This document shows, in pieces, positions 2,298 to 37,326 of a DNA stretch of 64,000 nt; within the stretch, counting starts at the first letter, position 1, and the number at the start of each line of letters is the position of its first letter. Made by a program: the position numbers and the translations under genes. The stretch lies in IMG/VR virus record IMGVR_UViG_3300030390_001781, positions 1 through 64,000 of that record. One strand, 5' to 3'. The notes below the pieces were generated by a model that made no database searches, had not been told where the DNA came from, and saw only the letters and a program-made list of their open reading frames with translations. The DNA is from a virus.

Positions 2298-2821
2298 ATA
2301 TTGACACAGAAGGTAATATTCTTATGAAAGATAAGGGTATTGCTCTTTTACCTAACTTGTTTAAAGTGTACAAGGATAAATACCTTGGCAGTAAAGCAGT
2401 TAAATGGATTGTAGCTATGCACGACTATCGTTCTCCGTATAGGTCTTTGCCTAAAGGTCAAAGAGAAACTATGATTAACAATATGTTCTTAGAAAAAGAC
2501 AAATGTACTTTTAAAGAAAAACCTTTAGTTGTAGATGCTATTAAAGAATACAAAGCTATAAGCTATGACCCTGACTATGAAGAATACCGTTCAATGGTAG
2601 ATAAGTCTTCAGAAGTAATACAAGTGTTTAAAGAATTAAAAGTTGATGCAGAAAACATTAGTACTATAAATGATCTACAAGTAGAGATGGGTAAAGCTGC
2701 TAAGTCAAGAAGAGAACTTAAAAATGCTATTATAAAAGAAATAGAGAGTGGTAATAAAATGTCAGGTGTTGGAGGTGATGATGATTTATCTATTTTTGAA
2801 CAAGAAGAAATGTTTAAATAA
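2279..2821 (+). CDS. Hypothetical protein immediately before TerL; small-terminase candidate by position
   Basis: A 180-aa protein ending one base into the TerL start. The N-terminal half is globular; from about residue 100 it is helical and charged, ending in a Gly/Asp-rich segment and an acidic tail (IFEQEEMFK). Small terminase subunits often lie here and carry helical oligomerisation regions, but I do not recognise the DNA-binding fold, so the assignment rests on position alone. Confidence 0.45.
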   Translation: MFGTLIDIDTEGNILMKDKGIALLPNLFKVYKDKYLGSKAVKWIVAMHDYRSPYRSLPKGQRETMINNMFLEKDKCTFKEKPLVVDAIKEYKAISYDPDYEEYRSMVDKSSEVIQVFKELKVDAENISTINDLQVEMGKAAKSRRELKNAIIKEIESGNKMSGVGGDDDLSIFEQEEMFK

Positions 2822-12865: not shown

Positions 12866-13585
12866 ATGAATAGCGACAAAGTTTCTATAAGAAGAATTAT
12901 TGGTGATGTAGCTGGTAACTTAGGTTTAAAAAATGTTAATCAGTACATAGATGACTTTGCAAGGTGGTCTGTTGAAGCTGAAAACTTAATTGGAACAGAT
13001 AACTCATATACACACAAAGAGTGCTTGTTGAAGGTTAAAAATATGAAGGCTACTTTGCCTGATGATTTAATTACTCTTAGTGGTTTAAAATATAACAATA
13101 CTGAAATAGAGTTTAGTGATAAAAACTTTGCTATGTTTAATAAGAGTGCTTCTAACGGAGGTTCAGTACACTTAGCTAACATATCAGCAGCAAAGTTAAA
13201 TAACGCCAACACAAGACAAGAGAGTGCTGGTAGTACTTACAATCTTGTATTTACTTTAAAGAATAGATACATATACGTTAACAGTAAAGACATTACTGAA
13301 TTTGGAATTAGTTACGAAGGTGTATCTATAGACGATGAAGGATTTCCTTTAATAGCTAAGAGTCATGAGTTAGCTGTATCTCATTATTTAATGTGGAAGT
13401 GTAAGTCTGTAGACTATTATAATGGTAAGATACCTAATCATATTTATAAAGAACTTGAATCAAGATGGTATTACTTATGCGCGCAAGCAAGAGGTAATGA
13501 TGAAATGCCTAATCCTGCAAAGCTAGAGTATCTTGCAAATATGTTTAATCAGTTACTTCCTTTACCAAATAAAAAATACTTTTAA
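12866..13585 (+). CDS. Tail adaptor/ring protein candidate
   Basis: A 239-aa protein ending one base into the next start. It has a helical start (IRRIIGDVAGNLG), the phrase KATLPDDLITLSGLKYN typical of gp11/gp4-like tail adaptors of podoviruses, a beta-rich middle, and a helical end (HELAVSHYLMWKCKS). It probably forms one of the stacked rings between portal and nozzle. Confidence 0.55.
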   Translation: MNSDKVSIRRIIGDVAGNLGLKNVNQYIDDFARWSVEAENLIGTDNSYTHKECLLKVKNMKATLPDDLITLSGLKYNNTEIEFSDKNFAMFNKSASNGGSVHLANISAAKLNNANTRQESAGSTYNLVFTLKNRYIYVNSKDITEFGISYEGVSIDDEGFPLIAKSHELAVSHYLMWKCKSVDYYNGKIPNHIYKELESRWYYLCAQARGNDEMPNPAKLEYLANMFNQLLPLPNKKYF

Positions 13586-16500
13586 TGACACAGATTAGTA
13601 AAAATATTTTTAGCAAAGGTTTAAATCGAGATTACGACCCAACTAATGTTAGTGCTACTTCAATGGTAGATAACATTAATGGTAAGTTAATGTTTAACAA
13701 ACGTGGTACACTTGATTGGGTAGAGGATAACGGTAACAAGTTGTCATTTACTTTAAACGGTAATAGTGGTGCTGATTTAAACAGATATGTACCAATAGGT
13801 TATGCTGGTAATGGTAATATAAAAATTATTTTTTCAGTTAGACAGAATTTATCTTTTTCTGAAATAGGAATTTTAGGAACTGATTTAGAAGGTAACGGAA
13901 CTTATGCTACATTGTTTAACGATGCTAATGATCCAAACAATCAAAAATTAAATTTTAAAACTACAAACCAAATATGTGCTAGATTTCTTTATGAAAATAA
14001 TGAAACAATAAGAGTGTATTGGGTTGATGGTGTAGAAACAGACAGTAATCCTCCTAGAGTATTTACTATAAAATATAATATTGCATTAGAAAAAAATGAT
14101 GTAACAGCATATAGCATTGTAACAAACTCTGTACACAGTATTAATAGTCAGTCTGAATTTAATATAGGTATAATAAAATATAACAAAAGATTATCAGGAA
14201 GTATTTTAACAGGTGTATATCAATACACCTATAGACTTTTAACAGATGACGGTTATGCTACTGGATGGGTTACTCCTACAAATAAAGTATTTGTAACTAG
14301 TGATAATTATAACACTACAAACTCAAATCTTTATGAGATGGAAGGTAGTGGTATTGATTCAGGCAAAGGAAATAGAATAGAAATAAAAGGTGTAGACGAT
14401 AGATACAATAGAATACAAGTAGCTTATTTGTATTCAAAAACAAAAGCTATTGTCGATGAATCTAATATATTTTCTGACACAGCAATTATTTCTGGTACAA
14501 CAACTATGTCTTTTGACCATGTTGCTAATGTTGGAGAACCACTTATAACTGATACTATAGCTCAAAGATTTCAAGGAATAGTAGCTGCTAAAACATTAGA
14601 AGTAAAAGATAGTGTTTTATATTATGGTAATATAATTGAAAATTTATTAAAAATAACTTCTGCAGAATTAGAAACAATTTTATCAGGATTAGCAATAACT
14701 CCTAAGTTTAGAGATATGCGTTCTGATACTATAGGTCTTACTAGAAATACTACTCCTTTAGTTAATGCAGAGGGTGTAGCCCAAGGAACTATAAATAAAC
14801 AAATGTATAATGGACAGCAAGAGCCATATAATGTTACAAATGATTATATAAACTATAAAGGAACACAAACAGAGCATTTATTTACAGGTTATTTTAGAGG
14901 GGAAACATATAGGTTTGCAATAGTATTTTATGACAAATTAGGTTATCCGTATTTTGCTTTTCATTTAGCAGATTTTACTTTTCCTGACCAATACGATACT
15001 ACTTATAAATGGAACAGATTAAAATTAGATGGAACTACTACAGGCGTAACAACAGCTAATTTAACTATTGCTGCTTCAACTACTAACGATTATCACCACA
15101 CACCTTTAGTTGGAGAACCAGTATTACTTAATGACCCTTTGCACAATGATACTTATTCTCATTTAAGAATAATGGGTATTGATGTAAGTGGTATAGATAT
15201 AACTACTATAAAAGATAAAATAAGTGGTTTTAGTATTGTTAGAACTGATAGAGATGCTACAATTATTAATCAAGGTTTAATAATGCCTACTTTAGTAGAT
15301 GCAACAACTAATACAATAACAAGACCACATTTAACAAGTTTTCATAGATGGGATAATACAAATCCTACACAGGCTAATCTTTCTAGAACTTTATTTAATC
15401 TGCATGAATATAATGGTTCTGTAAATAACAAATACAAAAGTAGACCAAATCAATCTGTTTTTTACTGTCCTGATTATGATTTTGATGAAACTACAATACC
15501 TACAGTACAAACTAGCGATACATTAAAAATAGTAGGTTCATGTTATAAAGCTCCAAATGAAACTTATGTTCAAGATTCAGGTGGTTCGTATAATGGCGCT
15601 CACATGACTTACATTGCTCAATTGCAAAGTTCTCCAAGAGAAAGTCCATGTGTTATTAGTAAATGGTATAGATCATATAATCCATATCACGAAAGTCCTG
15701 CTGACTATTTTCCTCAATATGGTAGAAATGTAAATGGTATAGAATATCAAGTAAGATTAGGTTTTCGTTCAACAGTAACAGCTTATGAAGGAAATTTAGA
15801 TTTTCATAATGCTATACAATATAAAACAGGCTCTGCTCCAACTACTGAAGGTTTAATTGCTCAATTAACTAGTTATTGGGGTTACGGAAAGAAAAACACC
15901 TTGTTGTACAAGCATGGAAATTTTACTGGAAATCAATCTGTAAGTCCATTTTTTAATTACTCAGGAGGTACTAGTTCTTTAAATAGAAATACAGGTGGTG
16001 GTTCTTTAATAGCTAATTACGTAAAACAAAATACAACTGTTTATGGTGGATTGACTATTAGTTCAATGCAACAAACAATTTTTTATTCTACAGGTCATTT
16101 TCAGCCAATAGGTAATTCAGATTTTCCTGAAGCAACAAATGATTTGTACAATAACATTGAAGTTTACGGTGGAGATTGTTATTTAGATTATTTTGGTTTT
16201 TTAAGAATATATGGTAGGTATGAAACTAATAATAGTGGTGATGATGTTTCTTATGGAGTAGTATTTCCATACGAAAGTACTATTAACCACACAATGCGTC
16301 AAGCTTCGTCATCGACAGAGCCTATGTACCCAAATGTTGGTCATAGAGGTTATAATAGTTTTAACTCACAAGCAGCAAATGTTTTTGGAGGTTCTATTTT
16401 TGCTTCAGGTTTGTTTTATGATATTGTATCAGGAAATGCTTTATTTGAAGAGTTTAACTATAACGATGTGTTAACTTTTTCAGAGTTAACTAAATTTTTT

Positions 16501-17928
16501 AACACTCAACCATTTGCTTTTCAAAATGTAAATGAATATCCTATAAGATGGCGACATACATTAAATAAATATTATGGAGACCCTATAGACTCATGGAGGC
16601 AATTTGAAATTAATTCTTTTGAAGATTTAATGGGTGTTTATGGCGTAATAACAAGTTCGTCATTTTTATTTAATCAAATATATTCTTTTCAAGAAACAGG
16701 CTTTGGTAGACTAAGAGCATTTGATAGAGCAGCATTAGAAAGCGAAACAACACAATCTTTAACAACAGGTGTAGGTCCAGCATTAGATGGAATAGATTAT
16801 ATATCTACTTCTGTAGGTAATCAGCATCAATGGTCATTGGTAAATACAGGAAAAGCTTTTTATTGGATAGACGTATTTAATGGAAAAGCTATGCGTTTTG
16901 CTCAAGATGGTTTAGCATACCTTTCTGATTTAAGAGGAATGCACTCATATTTTGAAAAAGAATCAAGTTTTTTTATAAACAAAGATAACCCTGCTTTAAA
17001 TAATGGAATACTTGGAGCTTGGAACTCAAAAGATAGAGATGTTTATTGGACTTTTAACAGAGATGAATACATTACTTATAATGTTAATTTTTATATTATT
17101 AACGATGTTATTGATGCGTCAAGTTATTATGGAAACAATGAAACTGTTTTTGTTAATTGGACTGGCTTAACTACTGTAGGTAATGGTTTGTTTTTACCTG
17201 TTGGTAATTCTACAAGTGGTAATAATTCCAATGTAATACAATATGTTAGTTTGTCAGGAACTTCTAACAACATGTTTGTTAACCAAAATAAAAACGGTGT
17301 AATTACAGGCTTAGTACAAATGCAAGCAAGTCAAAATTATATCTTTTTTAGAGAATCAGAAAATGATGATTGGCAGTTTACTTCTTTTGGTACTGATAAG
17401 AGCAAAATAACGCCATTTAGAGCAACTGTAGTTTATTCTGAATACATAACTCAGTTTACACAATTTCATAGCTTTAAACCAAACTTTTACATTTGTCATA
17501 ATAAGTTTATTTTAAGTGAACAAGCTAGTATAGTTTCTAAAGAGTTTTATGTTCATGGACAAAATTTACTACACGCTAATTATTACGGTAAAGACAATAA
17601 AACAAGTTTAACAGTTACAGTAAGTGATAAAGGTGAGTTTGCAAAGTTGTTTGATAATATAAGAGTTGCAATAAACAAACAAGGTGTTTCTAAAATGGAT
17701 AAGTTTATTTTTTCTACAGAACAACAGAAAAGATTTTATAACGTACAATCAGACACAAGAGTTAGATTTTTAGAAGATAACTTTAGACTCCCTATTAGAA
17801 CCATGAAGCAACAAGACCGTATGAGAGGTAGGTGGTTGTCTATGATTTTTGAATTTGATAATAATACAAACTATCCAATTAAAATTGATAACTTAATAAA
17901 TCATTATAGACTTTCTAACAGAAGATAA
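13585..17928 (+). CDS. Tail stabilisation/hub protein, very large
   Basis: A 1447-aa beta-rich protein. The N-terminus (SKNIFSKGLNRDYDP, then a NINGKLMFNKRG stretch) is the conserved opening of crAss-like stabilisation proteins. The remainder alternates strand and turn with many Gly, Asn and Tyr and ends in a basic LINHYRLSNRR. By position after the adaptors it should build the tail nozzle or hub, perhaps with appendages attached. No enzymatic motif seen. It is long for the family, so extra domains are likely in the middle. Confidence 0.7.
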   Translation: MTQISKNIFSKGLNRDYDPTNVSATSMVDNINGKLMFNKRGTLDWVEDNGNKLSFTLNGNSGADLNRYVPIGYAGNGNIKIIFSVRQNLSFSEIGILGTDLEGNGTYATLFNDANDPNNQKLNFKTTNQICARFLYENNETIRVYWVDGVETDSNPPRVFTIKYNIALEKNDVTAYSIVTNSVHSINSQSEFNIGIIKYNKRLSGSILTGVYQYTYRLLTDDGYATGWVTPTNKVFVTSDNYNTTNSNLYEMEGSGIDSGKGNRIEIKGVDDRYNRIQVAYLYSKTKAIVDESNIFSDTAIISGTTTMSFDHVANVGEPLITDTIAQRFQGIVAAKTLEVKDSVLYYGNIIENLLKITSAELETILSGLAITPKFRDMRSDTIGLTRNTTPLVNAEGVAQGTINKQMYNGQQEPYNVTNDYINYKGTQTEHLFTGYFRGETYRFAIVFYDKLGYPYFAFHLADFTFPDQYDTTYKWNRLKLDGTTTGVTTANLTIAASTTNDYHHTPLVGEPVLLNDPLHNDTYSHLRIMGIDVSGIDITTIKDKISGFSIVRTDRDATIINQGLIMPTLVDATTNTITRPHLTSFHRWDNTNPTQANLSRTLFNLHEYNGSVNNKYKSRPNQSVFYCPDYDFDETTIPTVQTSDTLKIVGSCYKAPNETYVQDSGGSYNGAHMTYIAQLQSSPRESPCVISKWYRSYNPYHESPADYFPQYGRNVNGIEYQVRLGFRSTVTAYEGNLDFHNAIQYKTGSAPTTEGLIAQLTSYWGYGKKNTLLYKHGNFTGNQSVSPFFNYSGGTSSLNRNTGGGSLIANYVKQNTTVYGGLTISSMQQTIFYSTGHFQPIGNSDFPEATNDLYNNIEVYGGDCYLDYFGFLRIYGRYETNNSGDDVSYGVVFPYESTINHTMRQASSSTEPMYPNVGHRGYNSFNSQAANVFGGSIFASGLFYDIVSGNALFEEFNYNDVLTFSELTKFFNTQPFAFQNVNEYPIRWRHTLNKYYGDPIDSWRQFEINSFEDLMGVYGVITSSSFLFNQIYSFQETGFGRLRAFDRAALESETTQSLTTGVGPALDGIDYISTSVGNQHQWSLVNTGKAFYWIDVFNGKAMRFAQDGLAYLSDLRGMHSYFEKESSFFINKDNPALNNGILGAWNSKDRDVYWTFNRDEYITYNVNFYIINDVIDASSYYGNNETVFVNWTGLTTVGNGLFLPVGNSTSGNNSNVIQYVSLSGTSNNMFVNQNKNGVITGLVQMQASQNYIFFRESENDDWQFTSFGTDKSKITPFRATVVYSEYITQFTQFHSFKPNFYICHNKFILSEQASIVSKEFYVHGQNLLHANYYGKDNKTSLTVTVSDKGEFAKLFDNIRVAINKQGVSKMDKFIFSTEQQKRFYNVQSDTRVRFLEDNFRLPIRTMKQQDRMRGRWLSMIFEFDNNTNYPIKIDNLINHYRLSNRR

Positions 17929-23617: not shown

Positions 23618-26600
23618 ATGGGAGAAACTAATAACTCTAATAACGCAACTTCTGAAAATCAAAGAGAAATAAATAATGAAGAGTATGCAGATGCGTTTAA
23701 ATCGTTAGACGAAAATTTCAATATCCCTGATATAGCTCAATCTTTTTCAGACACACAAGAACAAATAGACCCATTTAATGCTGGAATTGCTTTTCAAGAA
23801 GAATCACCAACTTTTACAGAGTTTGACCAAGGAGTTTTAGGAGATTTTATTAGTGGAGTATATAATACTTTAATTGTTGGTTCAGTAGAAGGTATGATTA
23901 ATTTAGCTCCTACTATATCTAATGCAATTACAGAAACAGAAGTTGCAAACAATTGGATAGATAGTGTTAGTAAGTTTGCATATGAATTTGAACTTGGTTA
24001 CTCTGATGATTTTTATAAGCCAATAGAGAAATTTGATGACATTAATGCTACTCATTTTACTGCAGGATTAGGAAATGGAATTGGATTTGTTATAGGTATT
24101 GGAAAGTTTGCTAAAGCAGGTCAGTTACTTTCAAAATCAGGAAGATTAATAAGAAAAGGTGAGAAGTTACTTGAAGGAACAAGTAAAGCTTTTAAATCTG
24201 GTGCTAAAGCAAGAAATAGTATTGATGATATTGTAAAAGCAATATTTAAAAAAGGTAAAACATCAAAATTAAAAAAAGTACCAAAATTTAAAGAAGGCTT
24301 AAAAGGAAAGAAACGAGTTGACATGTTAAACAAGTTAAAAAAACTTGAACAAACAGGAGAAAGCTCATTAAAAAATTCAGCTCGTTTTGGTAGTTTTATG
24401 GGTGGAACTACTATGATGTATGGTATGGTTCAAGAAGAGGCTTTAGCAGCAGGCTTAGACCGTACTGATGCAGCAAGATTTGCTTTGACTGTAGCTGGTG
24501 TAGTTTCTTTAACAGAAGGTGCGGCTCTTGAAGCTGTTGGAGCAATACCTGCTTTAGCTGCTAAAAGACAAATAGTAAAAGCAGCAGCACAAAAAAGTTT
24601 TAAAGGGATGGCTGGAAAGCCTCCAAGCAAAATATTAGAAGCTTTTTTACCTAAATATTCAAACGCTTTAAAAGCTGCAGATATAGCTAAGGGTGTAATG
24701 GTAGAATCTTTTCAAGAATTTACACAAACATATATTGAAGAAGGTGCTAAACAATTTTACGATGTAGTTTTTGCAGATAAAGATGCTAAAGTAGGTAAAG
24801 GTAAATTTGGTCAAGAAGTATTTGATTTAGATGCTGATTCTTTTGGTGATTTCTTTTTAGACGGTGAAGATGCTACAAGAACTTTTACTAATAGTGTATT
24901 TGCAGGAATACTTGGTGGTATTATTGGTGGTGGAATGGCTGGTTTGCAACTTAATGCAATTGGAGGTGAAAGAAATATTGGTAACGAAAGTGCTTTTAAT
25001 TTAATTGCAGATGATGTTATAAATAAAAAAACAAAAAATAGAGATAAAATAAATCAAGCTTTAACTAAGGCTTACAACGACGATAATATTTCTAAGCAAG
25101 ATATTGATGCAACAAACGAAATCTTAGACGAGATGGAAGCTTTTGTTCAAAAAAACAATCTTGTAAAACAAGTTGAAGATCCTATTGCTCAATATCAAAT
25201 GTTTAATCTTTTTAAAGCTGGTAAAGTTGTAGAGAGTAAAACAAAAACTAAAGAACAATTAGAAAAAGAACTACAAGGTGAACTTGATAAAACTATAGAA
25301 GAAAGACTTATAGACCAAGAAAATAAAAATAGTTTATTTGATTTAATTTCAAGTGCTATTAATATAAATTACGAAGAAATATACAGAACAGAAAAAGCTG
25401 AAACTAAAGACCCAGATGAATTTAATGATAAGGTTTTAGCTTATCAGTATTTAGCTGAACAAGTTGATGGTAATGTTTTTACAACAGAAGAAGAAGTATT
25501 AGCTGAACTTGATAAAATATATAGTAGTGAATTTAAAAAACAATATCAAACTATAGAAAAAACTGTTAAGGAACAATTAGAAAAACAAGAAGAAAGAGGT
25601 GATTTCTTAAATGAAGTTGAAGAAGAAGAGTTTAACGAATTTAAAGATAATGGTAACATATCTAAAAAAAGAATAAACTACTTAGCTCAAAAGTTAAAGA
25701 ACAAAAAAGACTTTAATGAGTATGAGCAAAAAATGTATGATGCTAAAAAATCTGAAGTTGAACAAGCTCGTGATTTCTTTATAAAAGAAGAAAAGGAAGC
25801 TAAAGCTGAACAAGAAAAAGCTAAGGAAGAAAATAAGTTTAAACCTAATGAGGGAGAAAGAAAAAAAGAAGAAAAAGGAGAAAAAGAGGAAAATAAAGAA
25901 AAACCTTTTAATGAAGAAGAATATAAAAAGTATTTAGAAACATTAACTGAAGAGCAATTAAAGGAAGAGTTTGATAATGTAGTTACTAAATCTGATAGTA
26001 ATGTAAAAGAAAAATTAGATTCTATAAATAAAGAAGATACAAGAAGAATAAAAAACAAAAAGCCTACAGGTAAAACTAAGGAAGAGATAAAAGCTGAGAA
26101 AGAAGAAGCTAAAAAGAAAGCTAAAGAAAAGACAATAAAAGACAAAATAAATGATATCCTTAATATAGGGAAATCTAAAAAAAGTGGTAAAAACTATTCT
26201 AAAAAATCAGCTAAAGATGTAGGTCAAGACCTTTTTTCTGCAGTATTAGGAGCAATGAAATCAGCACCTAATTATAATTCAGAAGAAGCTAAAACACTTT
26301 TTAAAGAATACGCTAAAACTGTACACCCTGATAAAAACAATCAAACTTCAGAAAGAGAAGCTTTAGCTACTGCAATTCTTTCGGCAATGACAGAAGCTAG
26401 GGATAAGGGGCGTGTAGATGTGTTAAAAAAATTAAAAGAACTTTTTGATACAGAAATAGCTAAACTTCCTAAAGCAGAAAAAGAAACTAAAAAGAAAGAA
26501 GAGCAAAAGAAGAAAGAAAGAGAAGCTAAAGAGCAAGAAGAAGAACAAGAAAACAAGGAAAAAGAAGAAAGAGAAGAAGATAAATTAATTGAGGCTATAA

Positions 26601-29600
26601 AAAAAGAATCCAATTTTATATCCAAAAGTTATGAAAAGATAAAGATAATAGAAAAGGACTATGAGAATTCTTTTTTCTTTAAAAGATATAATAAGGAAGA
26701 TGTAAAGTCTTTAGAAGAAGAAATAAAAGAAGCAAATGAAAGGATTGCATATTATAAAGAAGAACAAAAAAAGAGAGCAGGAACTTCTACTACAACTGAT
26801 ACAACTACTGAACAAAAAACAGGAGAAGACGTAGAGGAAGAAACTACACCTACTAAGAAAAAGAAAATTGATTTAAGTAAATTGACCTCTGTAGATAAAG
26901 ACCAATTAACACCTCCTGATGATCCTACCAATACTAATCCTAGCAATAATCCTAATGGCAATACTCAAACTGATGAGGAAATAGAAAAAGAAACATTAGC
27001 AACACAAAAAGCAAACAAAAATGAAAAAACCGCAGATAAAGTTATCCCTAAAATTAATAACTTACCTAGTGGTGATATAAATTTAGAACAAAGAAAAAAT
27101 ATAACTTCTGAGATTAATGATTCACAAAAAATAATTGATAACAATGAACTTTTTGAAAACATAAAAGAACATTTTAAAAAAATGTTTCCTAAAATACCTG
27201 TTCAATTAGTTGATAAATTATTTAATAAATACGGAGTAGAAATATTAGGTCAAGTATCTAAAGACGGAATTACTATTTCAGAAGAAGCTTATCAGAATAC
27301 CTTAGTACACGAATTTGCACACGTTTATATAGATTTAATAGCAGATAAAGAAATTGTTAAAAATGCTTTAGAATGGATTAAAACTACAAAGTTTTTTCAA
27401 TTAGCTAAACAGGCATATCCTAGTTATACAACGGAAAAACAAGCTATGGAAGCTTTAGTTCAAGCTATGTCTGAAAACTCTATACCTAAGCTTGAAGGTA
27501 TGTTTTCTAATAGTCAATTAACTAAATGGGGTTCAATTGCTAAAAAGCTTTGGAGAACAATTAAGAGAATGTTTACTGGTGTTAATAAAAGAAACTATAT
27601 TGATTTTTTATCAGATAGTTTAATTTATAATAGTAAGCCTATAATGGTTGAAACAAACTATTTAGAAAACAATGCTCTTGAACAAAGAAAAGCTATAGGG
27701 GTTGATGTTGCAAACTTTAATAATAATTTTTTATCTAGAAAAACTAAACAGTTTGTAATTAATTCTTTATTAAATGAAGATAAAAACATTACAGCCGTTA
27801 AGGTGTTATCTAATTTACGTATTGCTTTAATAAGCATAATGAATGATAACGAACAAACTTTTCCAACAGTAGCTTTAAACGCTAAGTACAATGAGCTAAT
27901 AGATAGTGATAATAAAGTTATTGGTTACGATGTTAAATATAACGAGCTTTCTGATAGTAAAAAAATAAGTGTATTATTAGAACAAACAGTTTATGAGTCA
28001 GGAGTTTCTTATTTAGAACATATGGCTTATGTTACAGAGCAGTTAGTTAAATTACCTACAGAGGTAAAAGAAGATTTTATAGACGAACAGATAAATAGAG
28101 ATCAAAATAAAGAAGAAGATACTGGAAAAGTAGAAAAAGAAAATATTAAAGGAGATAAAAAGATGACTAGTAGTATCGCTTCTTTAATAGGTACACTAGT
28201 TGATTCTGATGGTAAAAAAATACATGAAGATTTAGTTTTTTCATATATAGCAAAAGTTGCACAAAATAGTGTTACAAATCAAGAAGTTGTTACAAAAATT
28301 AAAAATGATTCTAAGAAAGGTAATAATATTGCAAATGCTTTGCTTTCTACTTTAATGGCTGCAAAACAATACGATAACAGTCAGAAAACAAATGTTTATC
28401 AAACTTTATTAATTGAAGTATTATCACAACAATCTGTAGTTTATAAATCTATTAATATAAAAACAGAAAGTACAGGAGATAATAAAGTTGAAGTTTACAA
28501 AACAAGTGCTTCAAGAATAAAAGCAAACAGAACAAGAGAGTTTAAAAAAAGAATACTTGACCCAAGATTTATATCACAGATTATTACTCGTGTTGGGAAA
28601 GGTGGAATGAATATCCAAGAAATAATAAATGAACGAATTAAAACAGGCAAAGGATATTTCTTACATAATCAATTAGGTACTTTTGATGTTCAGCAAGTAG
28701 ATGCTATTGGAGAGTTATTATTTGGTTTAAACGAAGGAGAATTTGATGCTGTTCATTATGTAAATTGGTTAATTAAATCAAAACAAAACGAAACAAGAAA
28801 TAAAACAACTGGTGATTTAATTATTAGGGCTAGAGAATTAAATACAATTAATAATATTTCAGACCCAAAAGCTAAAAAACAAGCTGCTTCTAATTTCTTT
28901 ATGGTTGAAATTTTAAACACATTTGGTGAGCAACAACAAAAGAAAAAAAATAAAGCAAACAAATCTAAAAACACTAGTGATGTTATTATGTCTGGTGGTG
29001 CTGTTAGTTCTTTAATGTCATTTGCAGCATTCCAATACGATGGTGATATACATAATGCAAATATGTTTATTAACTCTTCAGGTAACTCTATAAGCACAAC
29101 TAGATTAGGTTCATATTTAAATAGAGCCTTTACTAATATTGCAAAAAAGACAGAAGAAGCAAAAAAGAAAAACAATAAACAAATTACTGTAGAAGGTTTA
29201 GATGGTAGAAATAAAAAAGTGTTTTTGTTTAGAAACAATCCTGTCTTTGCAAAATTAATGAATGACGGAATTGTAAATCAATTTATAGACGATGCTGTAA
29301 ACTACGTAGGGGAAAAAGCAACTGAGCATGGGCAACAAAATGAAATTGATTTACTAATAACTCAATTAGCTTATTTTGCTACAAATCAAAATCGTGATTC
29401 CTACGACCAAAAGTTAATGATTAATGACCGTTCACATTCAAACTGGTTAAGTGTAAATAGATTAGATGCTAATCAAGCAAATACAGTTTTACTTCAACAA
29501 AGAAATGTTGACCAATCATTATTAAATGAAAACTATAAACTTCTTGATAAAGCAGGAAAGAAAAAATACTTAGAAGAGTTTAATAAAATTTCTTTAAACT

Positions 29601-32600
29601 ATGCTTATGATGAAAAAGGAAAAGTTAAAGTTATAGCTTTTAAAACTGATTTTATTAATAAAAAATTTCCTAGTGATTTTACTAAAAATCAAGTAGAAGG
29701 TTTTAACAAAAAAATAAAATCTATAGAGCAAGAGAAAAAAACAATAATTGACACTTTAAATAAAACAAAATTAACCAAAGCTTTTTCTAAAGACCATGTA
29801 GGAAATAAAAAACTTTATACAACTTTAGATAAATTAATAACTGCTTTTACTATTAACGATAGAATAAATAGGTTAGCTATTAATGACATTGTTTCAGAAC
29901 CAATAGCATATAGATTAGTAAAAGGAAAGTATAATAAAAAGAAAGGTAAAACAGTTTACACAGTAGATTCTTCTAACGTTATTAAGCGTAATAGTGGTTT
30001 TGATTCATTAGGAACTAAAGTTAATTTAAGTCATCAAAACACAAATAAAACTGTTAAGACTATTGTGTTTGAAATGAAAGATGACCAAGGAGAAGATATT
30101 TCCAATTCATTTTTATTTAGAGGAAGTCAAATGACTAAAGAAATACAAAAACAACTAGGAGAAAGAAAGCTAAATAAAATTGGAGATAACTCTAAAGATG
30201 GTGAATACATGATAACTGAAGATGGTAGAAACATTTATCATAAAAACTCTTCTATAAACTCTATGGAAAATGAAGAGGGTGAAAACAATCTTATTGCAAT
30301 GGCAAAAGGTAGTATGGGTGAAAACTACAAAGAAAGTAGATTTTACAAAATGTATGAAATGCTTCAAATGTTAGAAGAAGAGTATGGAGATGAATATCAC
30401 ATTCAAGTTATTGATGTAGAGTCAACTAAAGGTTCTAAGTTATACGATACACCTTCATCTATTGATAATTTATATAAAAACATAAAAGATAAAAATTGGA
30501 AAGCAATAGATAAATCTAGTTACATCTATGACAGTGAAAACTTTTACATACCATTTGATGAAAATAAAAAACTTTCAAAGAAAGAGTTAGCATTTCAAGA
30601 AGCAAGATTTGCTACACAGCTTGTAAAAATATTAACAAACTTTACTAATTCTGATATTGCTAAAGAAAACAGTCAAGAGTTAGAACAATTAATGGTTGAA
30701 TTGCTAGAAGAGCAAATTGGATTAAATGAAAATTCTAATAATTACAAAGACTCTGTGTTAGGAAATGTTTTATTTCAAACAAATTCTATACTAATAGGTT
30801 TAAAAGATTCTATTGACCAATTGCAAGACCCTGATACAATTCAGATGCTTGACGAAATGATTGCATACAATAAATCAGAAGGTAAAAAACTAGATAAGGC
30901 AAGAAAAACAATTAAAAGACTTTCAGAAATTGAAGAAGGTTTAAGTAAGGAACAGCAAGAAGCTTTAACAAAAGCTGAAGATATTGTTAATAATAAAAAA
31001 ACAATTAACAAAATTGATCACCCTGCTATGTTGCAACAGCTTAAACAAGTTATTATCTCTAAGATAAAATCTAAAGGTGTTGATTTAAGACTTCCAGGTG
31101 CTTATTTAAAAATGGTTCCTGATATTGATGGCAGATTAAAAAGTGAAAGTTTAGGTGATAATGAAAATGAAATATTACTTCCTTGGAGTATGTTTGGAAA
31201 AACAAAAGAACAAGCTGAGAAGTTCTTAAAAGAACAAAATGAAAAAGGAGGTGTCTTTGTTCCTGGTGTTAGAGTTCCTGCGTCAGATGCAATCTCTACG
31301 CTTAATGCAAGAGTTGTAGGGTTTATAGATGATGCAAATATGGCTGTTCTTCCACATGGTTTTACAGTAAAATCTGATGCTGACCACGATGGAGATAAAG
31401 TGTTTATTTACAGAATGGATTTACAAACTAAAGAAGGTAAGACTGTTATAAAAGAAAATTCTAAAAAGAATAAGATTTATAATTTGATGAATGAATTAAT
31501 GCAGACTGATGATTATAAAAAAAGAATTAAAGATGGTAGTATTAATCTTGATGTTTTTGAAAAGCAAGTAAAAGACATTAATGATGAATTAAAAGATTCA
31601 GGTCGAAAAGGTTTAAGAGAAGATTTTAATTTCGGAAGTGCTACTGAAATGAATGAAACAGATGCTCGTTTATCTTTTGGTGAAAAAGCTGTTGGTATTT
31701 TAGCTGTTGCTGGTAAGCTTAATGCTGCTTTGTATCAAGCAGGAGTTGTCTTTAAAGGTAATCCAAAGGTTACTATAATGGGTCAAGAAATAGATTTAGA
31801 AGAGATAGATGCTCCTAAGACTGCAAATGATATTGCAATGCTTTTACAAGCTGCTTTAGATATATCTAAGAAACCTGTTTTATTAACTGCAGGTATTAAT
31901 GCAAGTAATATTAATGTTGTTGTAGCAATGCTTATAAGTGGTATTAAATTAAAAAATGTTATTAAGTTTATTAACCAAGACAATATTATAGATTTTTATA
32001 CAACTGATAACACGTCAGATAATTCTTACAACAAAAAGAAAAATAAAGACCAATTAAAAATTAATTTAAAAGACCGAATAATAAACGAAAAAAATACAGC
32101 TATACAAAAAGAGTTAGAAACTTTAATGTATTTTACAGAGTTAGGTAATGAGCTAAATACAGTAACTTCTATTGCTCAGTTAGATGGTAAAATACCTAAT
32201 GACGGTTATTTATTAAGAGATGTTAAATCTGCTTTTAATTTAATTAAGAATAAAAACAGTAAAACTAAATTAAGATATAATGAGTTAGCTAATAAACCTT
32301 TAAATCAACATTATGAAAAATTAGTAGATTTTGCTTTAGATACTTTATCTCATCATTTTATTACAGAAAACGAAAGTTATTATAAAGAAATTGAACAAGT
32401 AAAGAAAAGTAGAGAAGCTTATGGCGTTAAAGAGTTTGATATGAAAACTGAAAAACGTAGAATAGATGATATGTTTGCTTTAATGGTATCTCAAAAATTA
32501 GATATTGAAGAAGAAATATCTGCTTTAGAATATGGTGATTCTGATTCTCTACTAATAAGGTTAGCCTCTATGGTTGCTTTTTCTCAAAAAGCTAAATTTC

Positions 32601-33700
32601 AAAATGTTAGTAATACAGAAAACGTATTACAAAAAAAATACATTAAAGCTCAAAAAGAATTAGTTCCTCAAGATAATACTTCTCAAAATAATGAACAGTA
32701 TGAATTAGAAATGGCGTTCCGTAGTCTATCTATGAAAATAGAAGGTTTTAATGAAACTTTTGGTAACATGATTTCTAATGAAGTTAAACAAGCAACATGG
32801 AATGAAAAAGGACAAACAACAGAAGGTATAACTAAAAAACAATATGTTAAGCAATATATTAAATCATTACAAGACCAAAACTTAGTAATACCTGTAACAG
32901 AAAATATGTTACCAAAATTAATAGACGTTGCTATTAAGTATGACGAATATTTAGATAGTAATATGTCTGAAATGAATCGTTCTAAAGAAAGTGCTAAAAA
33001 TAAGTTTTTACAATTACTGCAATTAACAACAGAAACAAATCCTTTAACAGACGTAGAAGAAAGGATATTAACTGGTAAAAATGATATACGTTATTTAACT
33101 ACTACAGAAAAAAGATTGGCTAAAGAAGATTTTTTAAAACTTCCTTTAGAAACACAAAAAGACTTTAAGGCTTATCAAATGTTAAAGTTTGGTTTAAGTA
33201 ATAAACTAGGAAGTTTAATCAGTATTATGCCTAGTGATTTTACGGTTGAGTATTTAAAATATATTTCAAATATTAAATCAGACGGTGTTAAAGAAAATAA
33301 AATTTATGAATTAAATGATTTAGAAATTGCTGAAAATTATAATGATTTATATTACCCATTAAAAAAGTATAAGAGTGCAAATAAATTAGTTGATAATGAA
33401 GGTCAGATATTAAAAGACATTAAAGATGTTAAAGAAAATAATGTTGTTTTCTTAAAAACTGAGTTAACTAAAAATAATGTAAAAACGTATCAAACAGTAA
33501 AAGGTAAACCTGGTGTTAGATTTGAAATTGAAGGAGATTCGAACATTTATGAATTTCAACAATATAATAAAGATGAAAGCATTGTATCAATAATAGACAA
33601 AGATTCAATGGCGAAAAAAACAAATGAATATACTACTTTTAGAACAGAGTCTTTATCAGAAGCTAGTGATGTTGCTGATAATTTAGACGAAGCTTGTTAA
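23618..33700 (+). CDS. Giant virion protein: J-domain, HExxH peptidase and RNA-polymerase-like DxDxDGD region
   Basis: A 3360-aa protein. Residues 1-450 hold small-residue hydrophobic stretches (near 152, 275-310 and 423-445) that could cross a membrane during ejection. Residues 480-1150 are mostly charged coiled coil, interrupted by a J-domain-like helix pair with HPDK at 903-906. HEFAH at 1231-1235 starts a zincin-like module. At 2587-2593 lies DADHDGD, preceded about 37 residues earlier by GVRVPASDAI: the same order as the RxP...NADFDGD region of multisubunit RNA polymerases, and the DxDGD type known from YonO and crAss-like virion polymerases. This suggests an ejected polymerase for early genes. 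The second barrel was not located; fusion with a peptidase suggests self-processing, which is inference. Confidence 0.75.
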   Translation: MGETNNSNNATSENQREINNEEYADAFKSLDENFNIPDIAQSFSDTQEQIDPFNAGIAFQEESPTFTEFDQGVLGDFISGVYNTLIVGSVEGMINLAPTISNAITETEVANNWIDSVSKFAYEFELGYSDDFYKPIEKFDDINATHFTAGLGNGIGFVIGIGKFAKAGQLLSKSGRLIRKGEKLLEGTSKAFKSGAKARNSIDDIVKAIFKKGKTSKLKKVPKFKEGLKGKKRVDMLNKLKKLEQTGESSLKNSARFGSFMGGTTMMYGMVQEEALAAGLDRTDAARFALTVAGVVSLTEGAALEAVGAIPALAAKRQIVKAAAQKSFKGMAGKPPSKILEAFLPKYSNALKAADIAKGVMVESFQEFTQTYIEEGAKQFYDVVFADKDAKVGKGKFGQEVFDLDADSFGDFFLDGEDATRTFTNSVFAGILGGIIGGGMAGLQLNAIGGERNIGNESAFNLIADDVINKKTKNRDKINQALTKAYNDDNISKQDIDATNEILDEMEAFVQKNNLVKQVEDPIAQYQMFNLFKAGKVVESKTKTKEQLEKELQGELDKTIEERLIDQENKNSLFDLISSAININYEEIYRTEKAETKDPDEFNDKVLAYQYLAEQVDGNVFTTEEEVLAELDKIYSSEFKKQYQTIEKTVKEQLEKQEERGDFLNEVEEEEFNEFKDNGNISKKRINYLAQKLKNKKDFNEYEQKMYDAKKSEVEQARDFFIKEEKEAKAEQEKAKEENKFKPNEGERKKEEKGEKEENKEKPFNEEEYKKYLETLTEEQLKEEFDNVVTKSDSNVKEKLDSINKEDTRRIKNKKPTGKTKEEIKAEKEEAKKKAKEKTIKDKINDILNIGKSKKSGKNYSKKSAKDVGQDLFSAVLGAMKSAPNYNSEEAKTLFKEYAKTVHPDKNNQTSEREALATAILSAMTEARDKGRVDVLKKLKELFDTEIAKLPKAEKETKKKEEQKKKEREAKEQEEEQENKEKEEREEDKLIEAIKKESNFISKSYEKIKIIEKDYENSFFFKRYNKEDVKSLEEEIKEANERIAYYKEEQKKRAGTSTTTDTTTEQKTGEDVEEETTPTKKKKIDLSKLTSVDKDQLTPPDDPTNTNPSNNPNGNTQTDEEIEKETLATQKANKNEKTADKVIPKINNLPSGDINLEQRKNITSEINDSQKIIDNNELFENIKEHFKKMFPKIPVQLVDKLFNKYGVEILGQVSKDGITISEEAYQNTLVHEFAHVYIDLIADKEIVKNALEWIKTTKFFQLAKQAYPSYTTEKQAMEALVQAMSENSIPKLEGMFSNSQLTKWGSIAKKLWRTIKRMFTGVNKRNYIDFLSDSLIYNSKPIMVETNYLENNALEQRKAIGVDVANFNNNFLSRKTKQFVINSLLNEDKNITAVKVLSNLRIALISIMNDNEQTFPTVALNAKYNELIDSDNKVIGYDVKYNELSDSKKISVLLEQTVYESGVSYLEHMAYVTEQLVKLPTEVKEDFIDEQINRDQNKEEDTGKVEKENIKGDKKMTSSIASLIGTLVDSDGKKIHEDLVFSYIAKVAQNSVTNQEVVTKIKNDSKKGNNIANALLSTLMAAKQYDNSQKTNVYQTLLIEVLSQQSVVYKSINIKTESTGDNKVEVYKTSASRIKANRTREFKKRILDPRFISQIITRVGKGGMNIQEIINERIKTGKGYFLHNQLGTFDVQQVDAIGELLFGLNEGEFDAVHYVNWLIKSKQNETRNKTTGDLIIRARELNTINNISDPKAKKQAASNFFMVEILNTFGEQQQKKKNKANKSKNTSDVIMSGGAVSSLMSFAAFQYDGDIHNANMFINSSGNSISTTRLGSYLNRAFTNIAKKTEEAKKKNNKQITVEGLDGRNKKVFLFRNNPVFAKLMNDGIVNQFIDDAVNYVGEKATEHGQQNEIDLLITQLAYFATNQNRDSYDQKLMINDRSHSNWLSVNRLDANQANTVLLQQRNVDQSLLNENYKLLDKAGKKKYLEEFNKISLNYAYDEKGKVKVIAFKTDFINKKFPSDFTKNQVEGFNKKIKSIEQEKKTIIDTLNKTKLTKAFSKDHVGNKKLYTTLDKLITAFTINDRINRLAINDIVSEPIAYRLVKGKYNKKKGKTVYTVDSSNVIKRNSGFDSLGTKVNLSHQNTNKTVKTIVFEMKDDQGEDISNSFLFRGSQMTKEIQKQLGERKLNKIGDNSKDGEYMITEDGRNIYHKNSSINSMENEEGENNLIAMAKGSMGENYKESRFYKMYEMLQMLEEEYGDEYHIQVIDVESTKGSKLYDTPSSIDNLYKNIKDKNWKAIDKSSYIYDSENFYIPFDENKKLSKKELAFQEARFATQLVKILTNFTNSDIAKENSQELEQLMVELLEEQIGLNENSNNYKDSVLGNVLFQTNSILIGLKDSIDQLQDPDTIQMLDEMIAYNKSEGKKLDKARKTIKRLSEIEEGLSKEQQEALTKAEDIVNNKKTINKIDHPAMLQQLKQVIISKIKSKGVDLRLPGAYLKMVPDIDGRLKSESLGDNENEILLPWSMFGKTKEQAEKFLKEQNEKGGVFVPGVRVPASDAISTLNARVVGFIDDANMAVLPHGFTVKSDADHDGDKVFIYRMDLQTKEGKTVIKENSKKNKIYNLMNELMQTDDYKKRIKDGSINLDVFEKQVKDINDELKDSGRKGLREDFNFGSATEMNETDARLSFGEKAVGILAVAGKLNAALYQAGVVFKGNPKVTIMGQEIDLEEIDAPKTANDIAMLLQAALDISKKPVLLTAGINASNINVVVAMLISGIKLKNVIKFINQDNIIDFYTTDNTSDNSYNKKKNKDQLKINLKDRIINEKNTAIQKELETLMYFTELGNELNTVTSIAQLDGKIPNDGYLLRDVKSAFNLIKNKNSKTKLRYNELANKPLNQHYEKLVDFALDTLSHHFITENESYYKEIEQVKKSREAYGVKEFDMKTEKRRIDDMFALMVSQKLDIEEEISALEYGDSDSLLIRLASMVAFSQKAKFQNVSNTENVLQKKYIKAQKELVPQDNTSQNNEQYELEMAFRSLSMKIEGFNETFGNMISNEVKQATWNEKGQTTEGITKKQYVKQYIKSLQDQNLVIPVTENMLPKLIDVAIKYDEYLDSNMSEMNRSKESAKNKFLQLLQLTTETNPLTDVEERILTGKNDIRYLTTTEKRLAKEDFLKLPLETQKDFKAYQMLKFGLSNKLGSLISIMPSDFTVEYLKYISNIKSDGVKENKIYELNDLEIAENYNDLYYPLKKYKSANKLVDNEGQILKDIKDVKENNVVFLKTELTKNNVKTYQTVKGKPGVRFEIEGDSNIYEFQQYNKDESIVSIIDKDSMAKKTNEYTTFRTESLSEASDVADNLDEAC

Positions 33701-33726: not shown

Positions 33727-36700
33727 ATGAATTGTCCTATACCTACTAACCCACAATGGAAAGCCTTAGTTAAAAAGAACGGAAGGAAAAAAGCTATGCA
33801 AATATATGTAGCTAATAACTATCAAGTTCCTGATGTAAAGAGCATACCTAAAACTATGTTTGATGTTATTAAAGGATTTGCAGTTTCTCAAAGTTCTACT
33901 CTTCAAAGATTAAAAGACGACCCTGAATTAACTAGTAAGGTAATTAATGATTTAAAAAAAGCAATGCCTAATGTTATAATTAACAAGGAAGGTATTATAA
34001 AAGAAGATCGAACATTTGTACCATTAAAAGCTGGTGAGATGGGAGAGAGTATTAGAAACTCTTTACACTCTATGGTTGCTTGGGCTAATGACGCTTATTT
34101 AGAAACTCCACCACATGAGTATGCACACATATACATAGATATGTATCGTAATGCTCCAATGGTAAAAGAAGCTATTGAAAAATATGGAGAAGAAAAATTA
34201 GTTGAAAAAATTGGTAGATACTATACAGAACAATATACTGCACCTGGTTTTAAAAAGTGGGTACAGAAGTTTTGGAATATGTTAAGAGCAATGTTTGGAC
34301 AACCTAACATTAGATACGAGTTATTTAAGTCTTTTAAAGACAATAAGCAACTCTCTACTGACACAACAAGAGGAACTGATATAGTTAGGTATCAAAAAAT
34401 TAAAACTCCTTATAAAAGAAATGATACTGCTTATGTTGAAAATGAACAATTAAAAGCTCAAGTAGATTTTGATTCTCAACAGGCATATAATTATAAAAAT
34501 GATACAAAGGGAATACAAAAGAAAGTAGCTTTAAAAAAGCTAGTTTTTGATTTAATGAATAGTGATTATTATTCAAATAATAAAAATTATAATAAAATTA
34601 CTTTAGACTCTTTAGTTCCTGGCGAACTAGCTTTTACTTTTGCCAACTTAGATAAATCAGCAATAAAAGAATCTTTAATAGGTTTAAGAGAATTTTACAA
34701 TAAGAAAATAGAAGACTTAAAAGAAGTTGATAAAGACCAAAGTAGTAAGTATAAAGAAGTAAACTTTTTTGACACAAATGATTTAAATAATATAAAGAAT
34801 AGTTATTCTGTTGCAAATACTACTAATAGTGATGCAATACTTGCTTGGTCAATGTTTACATTATTAAAATTAGACAATCAAGGTGATAGGAATTTGTTAC
34901 AACAATTTCAATGGGAAAAGTTTGGTATAAAAGAAGGAAGTAAAAAAGCTACAAATGTTATAACAGAAGGAACTAAGTTAGCTAGAAATATTTACGATAT
35001 ACAAAAAAGAATAGAAAGAGTAAAGTGGCAAAAAAAGAATTTAGTATTACCTAATGGTAAGTCAATAAGTATTGAAGCTGCTTCAAAAATATCTGAAAAC
35101 GAAATTGAAAGTGCTTCAAAACAAAGAGAAGATTTTTGGTATAATAAAGGATTTATTGGTCAAAACCCAGCATTAAAAAAGTTTTTTAAAGTTATAGTAC
35201 AATTGTTAAATACTTATTTAAGTAACGCAAGACTGCAATCTAAATTTTTAAGTGGTCAATCAGACAGTGCTATTCAACAAATGCTTTATGAAGAGTTTGA
35301 GCATGCAAATCACGCTAAGTTAAAAATTAAACAAGCTGCATTATTATCTTTTAACCAAGTGATAAAAAATAGTAAAAATTTAGATGGTAGTTTTTTTAAA
35401 AATCAAACTCAAGATATAAATCAATTATCTACAGTAGAAGTTGACCTTGGAGGAAAGAAGGTTAAATTAACAGAAGCTGAACTACTTAATCTTTATTTAA
35501 TGATAAGGATGGATAGTTCTAAAGATGATTCAAGAAGTACAAAGGATCAGATTTTAGAAGACGGTATAGTTTTACAAAATGTTATTGAAGGTAGAGATTT
35601 AGCTACTAGAAAGTTTTTGCCAACATTAACTGATTTAAATAATATAAAATCTAAAATAGAGTCTAATGAAAGAATGAAAAAAAATGTTGCGTTAATTGAT
35701 ACAACTATGAGTTTTCTATATGAAAAACTTAATAAAGCTCATGTAGATGAATTAGGTGTAGAGTTAAAAAACGTAAAAAATTATTTTCCAGTTTCTTACG
35801 GTTTGAAATCTGAAACCGATGTAAGAAACCGAAAGTCTATGGTAGATTTTATTGGTGCAAGATATGATAAGAAGACAGATAGGCAGCCTGTAAGAATAAG
35901 AGATACTTATCAAGTCGTAGAAAATTATACAGAAAGCGCAAGTCATTATTCAGCGTATGTTTTACCTATTACAAATGCAAGAAAATTAATTAAAAGTTTA
36001 AAACGTAAATATGAAAAAAACGTTTCAAGAAAAGATTATAAAACAATAAATGATTTAATAACTGCTTTAGAAGGTAACGTAAATAATCTAGAAGATAATT
36101 CAATACTTTATAGTTCTCAAGGTGCTAAAAAATCAGCAAAATTTTTTAATAAAATAATGTCTAATTTTAGTACTTCTGTATTAGCATTAAACGTACCTAC
36201 TATGTTTAAGCAACCTATTTCATATCAAGCAGCAGCAGAAGTTATTGATGTTAAATTTTTGCAAATGGCTGGATGGGGAAAAGGAATGATTGCAGGTATA
36301 GGATATCAAGAAGTGTTTAATCAAATACATAAAAAAAAAATAGGAGACAATAACTCTATGTTTCCAATAGAGTTTAGAATGGACGATAGTAATCCATTAT
36401 ATGCAATAATGAAAAAATACTCTCCAATATTTGCAGAAAGATTTGAAGGAGCTATAAGTAAAGAAACAGGAGAAGCTTTAATGGATAGCAGAATAGGAGA
36501 TGACCTTATTAATATACCTTTTACAAAAGGTTTAAGAAAAGTTTTAGTAAATTCATTTGGCTTTAAAGAAGGTGGTAATTTAGCAATATCTAAAAATGCT
36601 GCTATGAGTGGTATTAAAGCTTTTGATATTGCTACAGTTAGTTCTATATGGCAAGCAGTACAATTTGAAGCAGAAGAAGTGTTAGGTTTAACTAAAGCTG

Positions 36701-37326
36701 ATGGTGATGCTTTTTATGAACACGTAGCAAGAAGAGCAGAAGAAATAGTAAAAAAAACACAACCTACTTTTGATACAAACAATAGGTCAGGTTTATCTAA
36801 TGACAAAACATCTTTAGCTAGGTTTATAACTATGTTTGGTTCAGCTCGTAGTAAATTAGCAATGTTAATGATTGAAGGTGCTGTAGATTTAATGAACAAT
36901 CCTACTACAGAAAATAAACATAAATTTGTAAAACGTTCTGTAAATATAATGGTATTGTCTGCTGCTGCTGTAGTTGTTGTTGACATTTTAAAAACATTAA
37001 CATTGGGTACTGGCTTTGATGACCCTGAAGAAGATATACCTGAGTTTGCTGCATACAAAATGATAAGTACAGTTTTAGGTAACTTTTATGGAATAAGTCA
37101 AATTGCTGATGTTGTTATTTCAAATATAGATGACGAGCCTTGGAGAAGACAAATACAAGACCCTTTCTCAGCTTTAGCACAAGATGCTTCTGCTGTAATT
37201 TGGAATACATTTAATGGTGATTTTGACAAAGCTGCTTTAAAAGCTTTAGAAACAACAATGAAAGCTACAGGAGCTCCTTTATCTCCTTACTTAATAATTA
37301 AGAATATTGTAAAAAGAACAAATTAA
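33727..37326 (+). CDS. Large virion protein with second HExxH metallopeptidase-like module
   Basis: A 1199-aa protein opening MNCPIPTNPQWKALVKKN. HEYAH at 130-134 begins a module (YIDMYRNAPMVKEAIE, later KFWNMLRAMFGQPN) matching one in the preceding giant protein. The middle is helical. The last 250 residues contain Ala/Val-rich hydrophobic helices (VLSAAAVVVVDILKTL) and AGTGFD-like turns. It is probably another ejected cargo protein. Metal ligands are complete for HExxH; the third ligand is unclear. Helper roles for membrane passage or peptidoglycan are open. Confidence 0.6.
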   Translation: MNCPIPTNPQWKALVKKNGRKKAMQIYVANNYQVPDVKSIPKTMFDVIKGFAVSQSSTLQRLKDDPELTSKVINDLKKAMPNVIINKEGIIKEDRTFVPLKAGEMGESIRNSLHSMVAWANDAYLETPPHEYAHIYIDMYRNAPMVKEAIEKYGEEKLVEKIGRYYTEQYTAPGFKKWVQKFWNMLRAMFGQPNIRYELFKSFKDNKQLSTDTTRGTDIVRYQKIKTPYKRNDTAYVENEQLKAQVDFDSQQAYNYKNDTKGIQKKVALKKLVFDLMNSDYYSNNKNYNKITLDSLVPGELAFTFANLDKSAIKESLIGLREFYNKKIEDLKEVDKDQSSKYKEVNFFDTNDLNNIKNSYSVANTTNSDAILAWSMFTLLKLDNQGDRNLLQQFQWEKFGIKEGSKKATNVITEGTKLARNIYDIQKRIERVKWQKKNLVLPNGKSISIEAASKISENEIESASKQREDFWYNKGFIGQNPALKKFFKVIVQLLNTYLSNARLQSKFLSGQSDSAIQQMLYEEFEHANHAKLKIKQAALLSFNQVIKNSKNLDGSFFKNQTQDINQLSTVEVDLGGKKVKLTEAELLNLYLMIRMDSSKDDSRSTKDQILEDGIVLQNVIEGRDLATRKFLPTLTDLNNIKSKIESNERMKKNVALIDTTMSFLYEKLNKAHVDELGVELKNVKNYFPVSYGLKSETDVRNRKSMVDFIGARYDKKTDRQPVRIRDTYQVVENYTESASHYSAYVLPITNARKLIKSLKRKYEKNVSRKDYKTINDLITALEGNVNNLEDNSILYSSQGAKKSAKFFNKIMSNFSTSVLALNVPTMFKQPISYQAAAEVIDVKFLQMAGWGKGMIAGIGYQEVFNQIHKKKIGDNNSMFPIEFRMDDSNPLYAIMKKYSPIFAERFEGAISKETGEALMDSRIGDDLINIPFTKGLRKVLVNSFGFKEGGNLAISKNAAMSGIKAFDIATVSSIWQAVQFEAEEVLGLTKADGDAFYEHVARRAEEIVKKTQPTFDTNNRSGLSNDKTSLARFITMFGSARSKLAMLMIEGAVDLMNNPTTENKHKFVKRSVNIMVLSAAAVVVVDILKTLTLGTGFDDPEEDIPEFAAYKMISTVLGNFYGISQIADVVISNIDDEPWRRQIQDPFSALAQDASAVIWNTFNGDFDKAALKALETTMKATGAPLSPYLIIKNIVKRTN

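Follow-up and report, generated by a model that had tools for sequence, protein, structure and literature searches.

A protein of 3360 residues encoded in a 64 kb window of phage DNA, the whole stretch analysed here out of a virus record of 69,355 bases, raises the question of why motifs of a J-domain, a metallopeptidase and an RNA polymerase (RNAP) should occur together in one chain. The gene, P0001 (23618..33700; like all features of the window given below, on the plus strand), starts with ATG and has zero internal stops. As the first-pass annotation had claimed, HPDK (residues 903–906), HEFAH (1231–1235) and DADHDGD (2587–2593) lie in a single uninterrupted frame, and the RxP element that it placed near the DxDxDGD acids is found as RVP at 2552–2554, before the loop. 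Given the length and composition of the protein, 0.003 occurrences of HPDK, 0.014 of HExxH and 0.003 of DxDxDGD are expected by chance, counts that ignore the many other motifs a reader might have picked; conservation is the better test. Orthologues of 2967–3472 residues are present in the related contigs L003–L006, L011, L013, L027 and L035.

The window also encodes a terminase large subunit (TerL, 2821..4755; phrog_6681, E 1.7e-76), a portal protein (4763..6988; phrog_6547, E 9.5e-81), a major capsid protein (MCP, 8109..9479; phrog_11589, E 4e-46) and a crassvirus muzzle protein (13585..17928; PF25731, E 1.1e-94). By these four protein families the phage belongs to Crassvirales. The best named matches of TerL were crassviruses, at 24–29% identity; with ~29% as the upper limit, the window therefore represents a divergent lineage. 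Judging from the order Crassvirales, the host would lie in Bacteroidota. The gene order, running from the muzzle through smaller proteins to the giant protein and then a large subunit, resembles that of Cellulophaga phage phi14:2 (g071 to g065), crAss001 and cr125_1, and g065–g071 of phi14:2 are labelled as virion proteins in the annotation, from MS/MS. The large subunit of the window, a protein of 1199 residues immediately downstream (33727..37326; phrog_28077, E 4e-26), is gp65-like by position and probably RNAP-associated.

Searches with the full 3360-residue protein gave no match in PHROGs and, using phmmer, no true relative among PDB sequences. A tblastn match to the RNAP of cr8_1 was obtained (31% over 163 residues, E 4e-6), and family contigs (n = 13) were gathered from IMG/VR in several scans. 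All IMG/VR family relatives whose sequence includes the site have DxDxDGD, as DADHDGD in five distinct relatives, DADNDGD in L022, L027 and L037, and DSDHDGD in L035. Comparison of the core with phi14:2 gp66, crAss001 gp50, cr8_1 and crAss002 by hhalign gave a probability of 97.2 (E 4e-11), and the profile alignment stacks DADHDGD on DFDID and RVP on RIP. The segment from RVPAS (from residue 2552) to DADHDGD (31271..31396) is the predicted catalytic barrel segment with its metal-binding loop. The whole catalytic half aligned with the crAss RNAPs over 406 columns (probability 98.0); in this run the controls, reversed or column-shuffled, gave 0.1% or less. When nine crAss and nine family sequences were used, 941 columns were aligned and residues 1816–2878 (29063..32251), the RNAP catalytic region, were collinear with gp66 531–1766 (probability 99.1, E 4.2e-19); the reversed and shuffled controls belong to the 406-column comparison and not to this longer run. 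Aligned alone, the upstream half, which excludes the core, is collinear with gp66 531–933 but weakly (probability 50–58%, E ~1e-4).

The RNA-polymerase claim of the first-pass annotation is thus borne out by homology to gp66, which makes this an RNAP of the crAss virion type with DxDxDGD kept wherever the site is covered, and it is almost certain that the protein is an RNAP. A double-psi barrel fold is very likely in this region because it is homologous to a solved two-barrel enzyme, gp66 (PDB 6VR4). The AlphaFold model of residues 2060–2960 has a mean pLDDT of 53 and values below 50 over most of the core, and at such confidence no barrel is visible; Foldseek and VIA-align matches of this model and of the equally low-confidence model of residues 855–1360 were judged meaningless and discarded. 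A profile of the RNAP core found no true relative among PDB sequences using hmmsearch and no relative in GTDB genome contigs, and a single-sequence scan of viral contigs with the C-terminal half gave no match. An N4-type (T7-like single-subunit) polymerase was considered and rejected, as the protein is instead a homologue of the two-barrel gp66 family and no T7-type match was found in Pfam or PHROG. With gp66, crAss001 gp50, crAss002 gp33 and cr8_1 gp93 it shares the 941-column collinear homology, the metal-binding loop, the RxP element and a position beside the muzzle and cargo genes. It differs from them in the loop, which is DFDID or DFDVD in the crAss virion RNAPs and DADHDGD here, and in that an upstream cargo region and a J-like module are fused to the polymerase in one chain.

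The first part of this upstream region is a hydrophobic, Gly-rich N-terminal domain (residues 60–480, 23795..25057) that is conserved among relatives. It has two hydrophobic segments (289–313 and 427–445) and is proposed to be an ejection or membrane region. Further along the chain is a zincin-like domain (residues 1150–1340, 27065..27637) that contains HEFAH (27308–27322). This domain matched PF10263, SprT-like, at E 1.3e-3 and 19.0 bits, below the cut-off of 25.6. In a seven-row alignment H1231, E1232, H1235 and E1278 are invariant, Glu1278 being the candidate third ligand, and HExxH and E1278 fall in modelled helices (pLDDT about 64–70 and 88, respectively). A HExxH helix with a Glu in the following helix is the arrangement of the zincin-like peptidases of polyvalent proteins (PMC5512222). 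Crassvirus proteins of the gp47 type have HExxH near their end, ahead of the RNAP (HEAFH in crAss001, HEGLH in cr8_1, HEGVH in crAss002); in the cr125_1 fusion HEAFH is within the chain, and the annotation of cr11_1 gp65 reads 'putative RNAP associated protein fused to zincin protease'. The zincin-like domain of the window is weakly detectable against the gp47-type zincins (hhalign, probability 22%, E 1e-3). By these comparisons, the chain resembles a catalytic subunit to which a gp47-like cargo region has been joined. The 1199-residue subunit has its own HEYAH (residues 130–134, 34114–34128), kept in orthologues and accompanied by a WVQKFWNMLRAMF segment like one after the zincin of the giant protein. 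The two proteins, from neighbouring cargo genes, possibly contain paralogous zincins.

Between the conserved N-terminal and zincin-like domains of the giant protein is a variable slot (residues about 481–1149, 25058..27064) of K/E-rich linkers with exchangeable modules. The combined K+E fraction is 0.45–0.53 in the linkers and 0.28 at an island of 85 residues, the J-like module (residues 867–950, 26216..26467), in which HPDK occupies 26324–26335. Pfam DnaJ (PF00226) was the top match of this segment, at E 7e-4 and 20.1 bits, below the cut-off of 27.8. Only DnaJ, HscB and ActJ models matched it in NCBIfam, and in a phmmer search of PDB sequences 14 J-proteins ranked first (best E 0.024). No family relative has HPDK, and no J module was found in nine of them over the sequence available for each. 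Two of these relatives have a TerL 94–95% identical to that of the window, so the module is dispensable. A chance occurrence of HPDK was considered first, on account of the relatives without a module and of the effect of masking described below, and this view was reversed by the finding of four homologous modules. A scan with the segment gave the copy in L047, and a scan with the resulting two-sequence alignment gave those in L055, L056 and L057; the four are 42–49% identical to the window copy.

HPD is invariant in all five copies, as are the block LFKEYAK.VHPD.N and a GRVD.L segment, GRVD(I/V)L. The HPD codons differ synonymously among the copies, and dN is well below dS among four close ones. 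Every copy matched Pfam DnaJ with E no higher than 0.1 (4e-4 for the best), in each case below the gathering score, and DnaJ was the only Pfam family common to all five; similarities of the module to Pfam PilJ, designed repeats and protein G were discounted as spurious. All five loci are crassvirus-type virion RNAP (vRNAP) loci, the RNAP of the other four having been confirmed with a crAss profile (hmmsearch, E 2e-33 to 5e-67). The module is in the RNAP chain itself (window, L056, L057) or in the gene directly upstream (L047, L055), and the order J module, zincin-like site, RNAP is kept in four loci, L047 having no zincin between. Helices are predicted at ~865–881, 888–901, 910–929 and 935–948, in the order of a J-domain, with low pLDDT (about 36–56; mean 52 for the model of 855–1360). 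No match to the module was found in 50,697 annotated phage records and no relative in GTDB genome contigs, and no HPDK was found in the gp47- and gp66-type crassvirus proteins checked. The J-domain claim therefore stands in part: it is favoured by the invariance of HPD and of the helix-II block at five vRNAP loci and by DnaJ being the sole Pfam family matched by all, and weakened by scores below the Pfam threshold and by dependence on HPDK. On sequence evidence the module is probably a genuine, divergent J-domain.

Other contents of the slot and of the polymerase chain vary among relatives. A slot segment of 125 residues is common to L003, L022 and L027 (54–56% identity), and L004 shares a different slot segment with L022 and L027; the cores of distant family members are ~27% identical to that of the window. 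This pattern suggests that slot modules are exchanged horizontally among family members. The giant proteins of the window and L003 are 49% identical, though TerL is 94–95% identical (L003, L028), which suggests that the vRNAP cargo gene changes very fast or has recombined. L003 (TerL 95% identical), which has no J module, has an ART-PolyVal-like (ADP-ribosyltransferase) insert within its polymerase region, a short distance past the catalytic loop (L003:10334-10888, residues about 2606–2790 of P0003; PF18760, E 3.4e-5, under the curated threshold). A segment of L013 was also considered as ART-like, but Pfam gave no support and the idea was dropped. The RNAP subunit of L047 (2245 residues) ends with NADAR (E 8e-12) and cpYpsA SLOG (E 8.5e-11) domains, both above the curated cut-off (L047:14127-14828, residues 1904–2137), which are candidate counter-defence payloads delivered with the polymerase. 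The J-module protein of L055 also has a PD-(D/E)XK nuclease domain (L055:6855-7232; PF12705, E 7.6e-5). Judged by these domains, the vRNAP protein family acts as a chassis for delivery, a role that has been proposed for polyvalent proteins.

The reading favoured here, to which a probability of roughly 70% is given, is that the ORF is the catalytic virion RNAP of a divergent Crassvirales phage, fused to a gp47-like cargo region and containing a swappable J-like module that plausibly recruits DnaK. It is highly probable, by analogy with relatives, that the protein is virion cargo. Packaging in the virion, ejection and early transcription are inferred because they are known in those relatives: phi14:2 carries its RNAP in the virion and uses it to transcribe early genes (PMC7886860), while the crAss001 virion carries gp45–gp47, gp49 and gp50, which are modelled to unfold on ejection, gp47, gp49 and gp50 being cargo and gp45 being expected to exit N-terminus first (PMC10172136). 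The protein would according to this model be packaged as capsid cargo and would pass the tail at least partly unfolded, N-terminus first, with its hydrophobic N-terminal domain working at the envelope or close to it. Entering the cytosol before the polymerase, the J-like module would recruit host DnaK (Hsp70), and DnaK would help to hold the ~2400 residues still to come, draw them in or refold them. Transcription of early phage genes by the two-barrel polymerase would follow. Processing of the protein or, in some lineages, action on host proteins is a possible function of the zincin-like domain. Of the overall interpretation given in the first pass, a protein that is ejected, recruits DnaK, perhaps cuts itself and transcribes early genes, the RNAP type and the zincin-like domain are supported by homology and the J-domain more weakly; DnaK recruitment, refolding and proteolysis are steps that we infer.

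A role of the J-domain in the ejection or refolding of its own protein is put forward tentatively. More tentative still is the specific proposal that it lets host Hsp70 grip the incoming unfolded vRNAP and so drive its import and refolding, which would make host DnaK part of the injection machinery; the pull by DnaK is likened to the role of Hsp70 in mitochondrial protein import. The module could instead be a J-domain that acts as an effector, redirecting or sequestering host DnaK or helping other phage proteins, and would then be one payload among several (ART, NADAR, SLOG, nuclease) with no part in vRNAP entry. Such a function is in keeping with polyvalent-protein theory (PMC5512222) and with the ART-PolyVal-like, NADAR, cpYpsA and PD-(D/E)XK domains of other vRNAP proteins, and it fits a swappable slot, in which close relatives have unrelated sequence, almost as well as delivery does. 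At all five loci, however, the module precedes the RNAP, either within the vRNAP protein or directly ahead of it, which suits delivery. Because this position ahead of the RNAP is constant, a delivery role is slightly preferred and an effector role is considered rather unlikely.

It is also unlikely that the zincin is the key element and releases polymerase and payload domains by cutting the polyprotein after ejection. Processing of this kind has been proposed for the MPTases of polyvalent proteins (PMC5512222), and HExxH with its Glu is conserved here; HExxH is kept in all the family relatives seen bar L035. In L035 (HEFAE) and in two further lineages, L056 (HEVFE) and L057 (HEIGE), HExxE replaces HExxH, with loss of the second metal-binding His, which suggests degenerate or differently liganded zincins. 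As three lineages have HExxE, peptidase activity would not be universally required, and self-cleavage by the putative peptidase is doubtful. Furthermore, N4 vRNAP is packaged unprocessed despite its zincin (PMC5512222) and the 3360-residue protein has no evident cleavage site. The metallopeptidase claim of the annotation is therefore retained as far as a zincin-like domain with conserved HExxH and Glu is concerned, and is qualified by the HExxE lineages; the chances that the domain is an active peptidase appear about even.

A further alternative concerns the identity of the HPDK module, which might be a small helical domain unrelated to J-domains, with a coincidental HPDK, that binds, for example, DNA, RNAP or a host factor. 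When HPDK was masked, the Pfam DnaJ, PDB J-protein and NCBIfam matches were all lost, so the J assignment leans largely on HPDK and its immediate context. When module profiles were compared with the PDB, J-proteins were not ranked first and designed repeat proteins preceded DnaJ; helix I is not canonical, YxxLG being absent from the module, and conservation reaches past HPD to GRVD(I/V)L. Against this, HPD has stayed invariant in five divergent copies with synonymous codon differences, the invariant LFKEYAK.VHPD.N block fits J helix II, no Pfam family other than DnaJ matches all five, and the order of the predicted helices, at low confidence, suits a J-domain. An unrelated domain is thus considered improbable. 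Finally, a non-virion RNAP, made after infection and never ejected, is very improbable: some phages do have non-virion two-barrel RNAPs (PMC10770324), but the polymerase of the window is fused to a hydrophobic cargo-like N-terminal domain, adjoins the muzzle gene and has homologues among the virion proteins of phi14:2 and crAss001 (PMC10172136).

The combination of motifs is not unprecedented in kind, as crAss RNAP-associated proteins with zincins have been annotated and N4 vRNAP has a zincin (PMC5512222, PMC12633501). The Suoliviridae protein of cr125_1 (4502 residues) is likewise a single-chain fusion of cargo and RNAP with a zincin motif, and in cr11_1 gp65, of the gp47 type, the cargo region that precedes the RNAP subunit likewise has a zincin motif. 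The vRNAP of phage N4 (Schitoviridae) is also an ejected single chain of ~3500 residues with a HExxH domain, but it is of the T7-type single-subunit class, its zincin is C-terminal to the polymerase and neither of the two papers reports a J-domain (PMC12633501, PMC5512222). In gp96 of Thermus phage P23-45 a two-barrel RNAP similarly occurs in a giant chain with a metallopeptidase and membrane segments; that protein differs in belonging to a tape measure protein of a long-tailed phage, with the RNAP at its N-terminus and no J-domain described (PMC10770324). Polyvalent proteins (Iyer et al. 2017, PMC5512222) are likewise multidomain delivered proteins with a zincin hub and ART as an alternative module, and that paper mentions neither DnaJ nor J-domain. 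No paper among those searched links Crassvirales and DnaJ. A virion RNAP with an adjoining zincin is thus already known in crassviruses, and the J-like module is the new element.

Giant polymerases of crAss-like and N4-like phages have to thread a narrow tail channel and gain activity inside the cell. To the question of how they do so, a J-like module ahead of the polymerase offers a concrete candidate answer, host DnaK, which would hold for some crassviruses at least. Modules are exchanged rapidly in this protein, the J-like one as well as the ART-like, NADAR, SLOG or nuclease domains of relatives. This suggests in addition that the virion RNAP is a vehicle for early-acting domains, and so points to a place to look for counter-defence functions.
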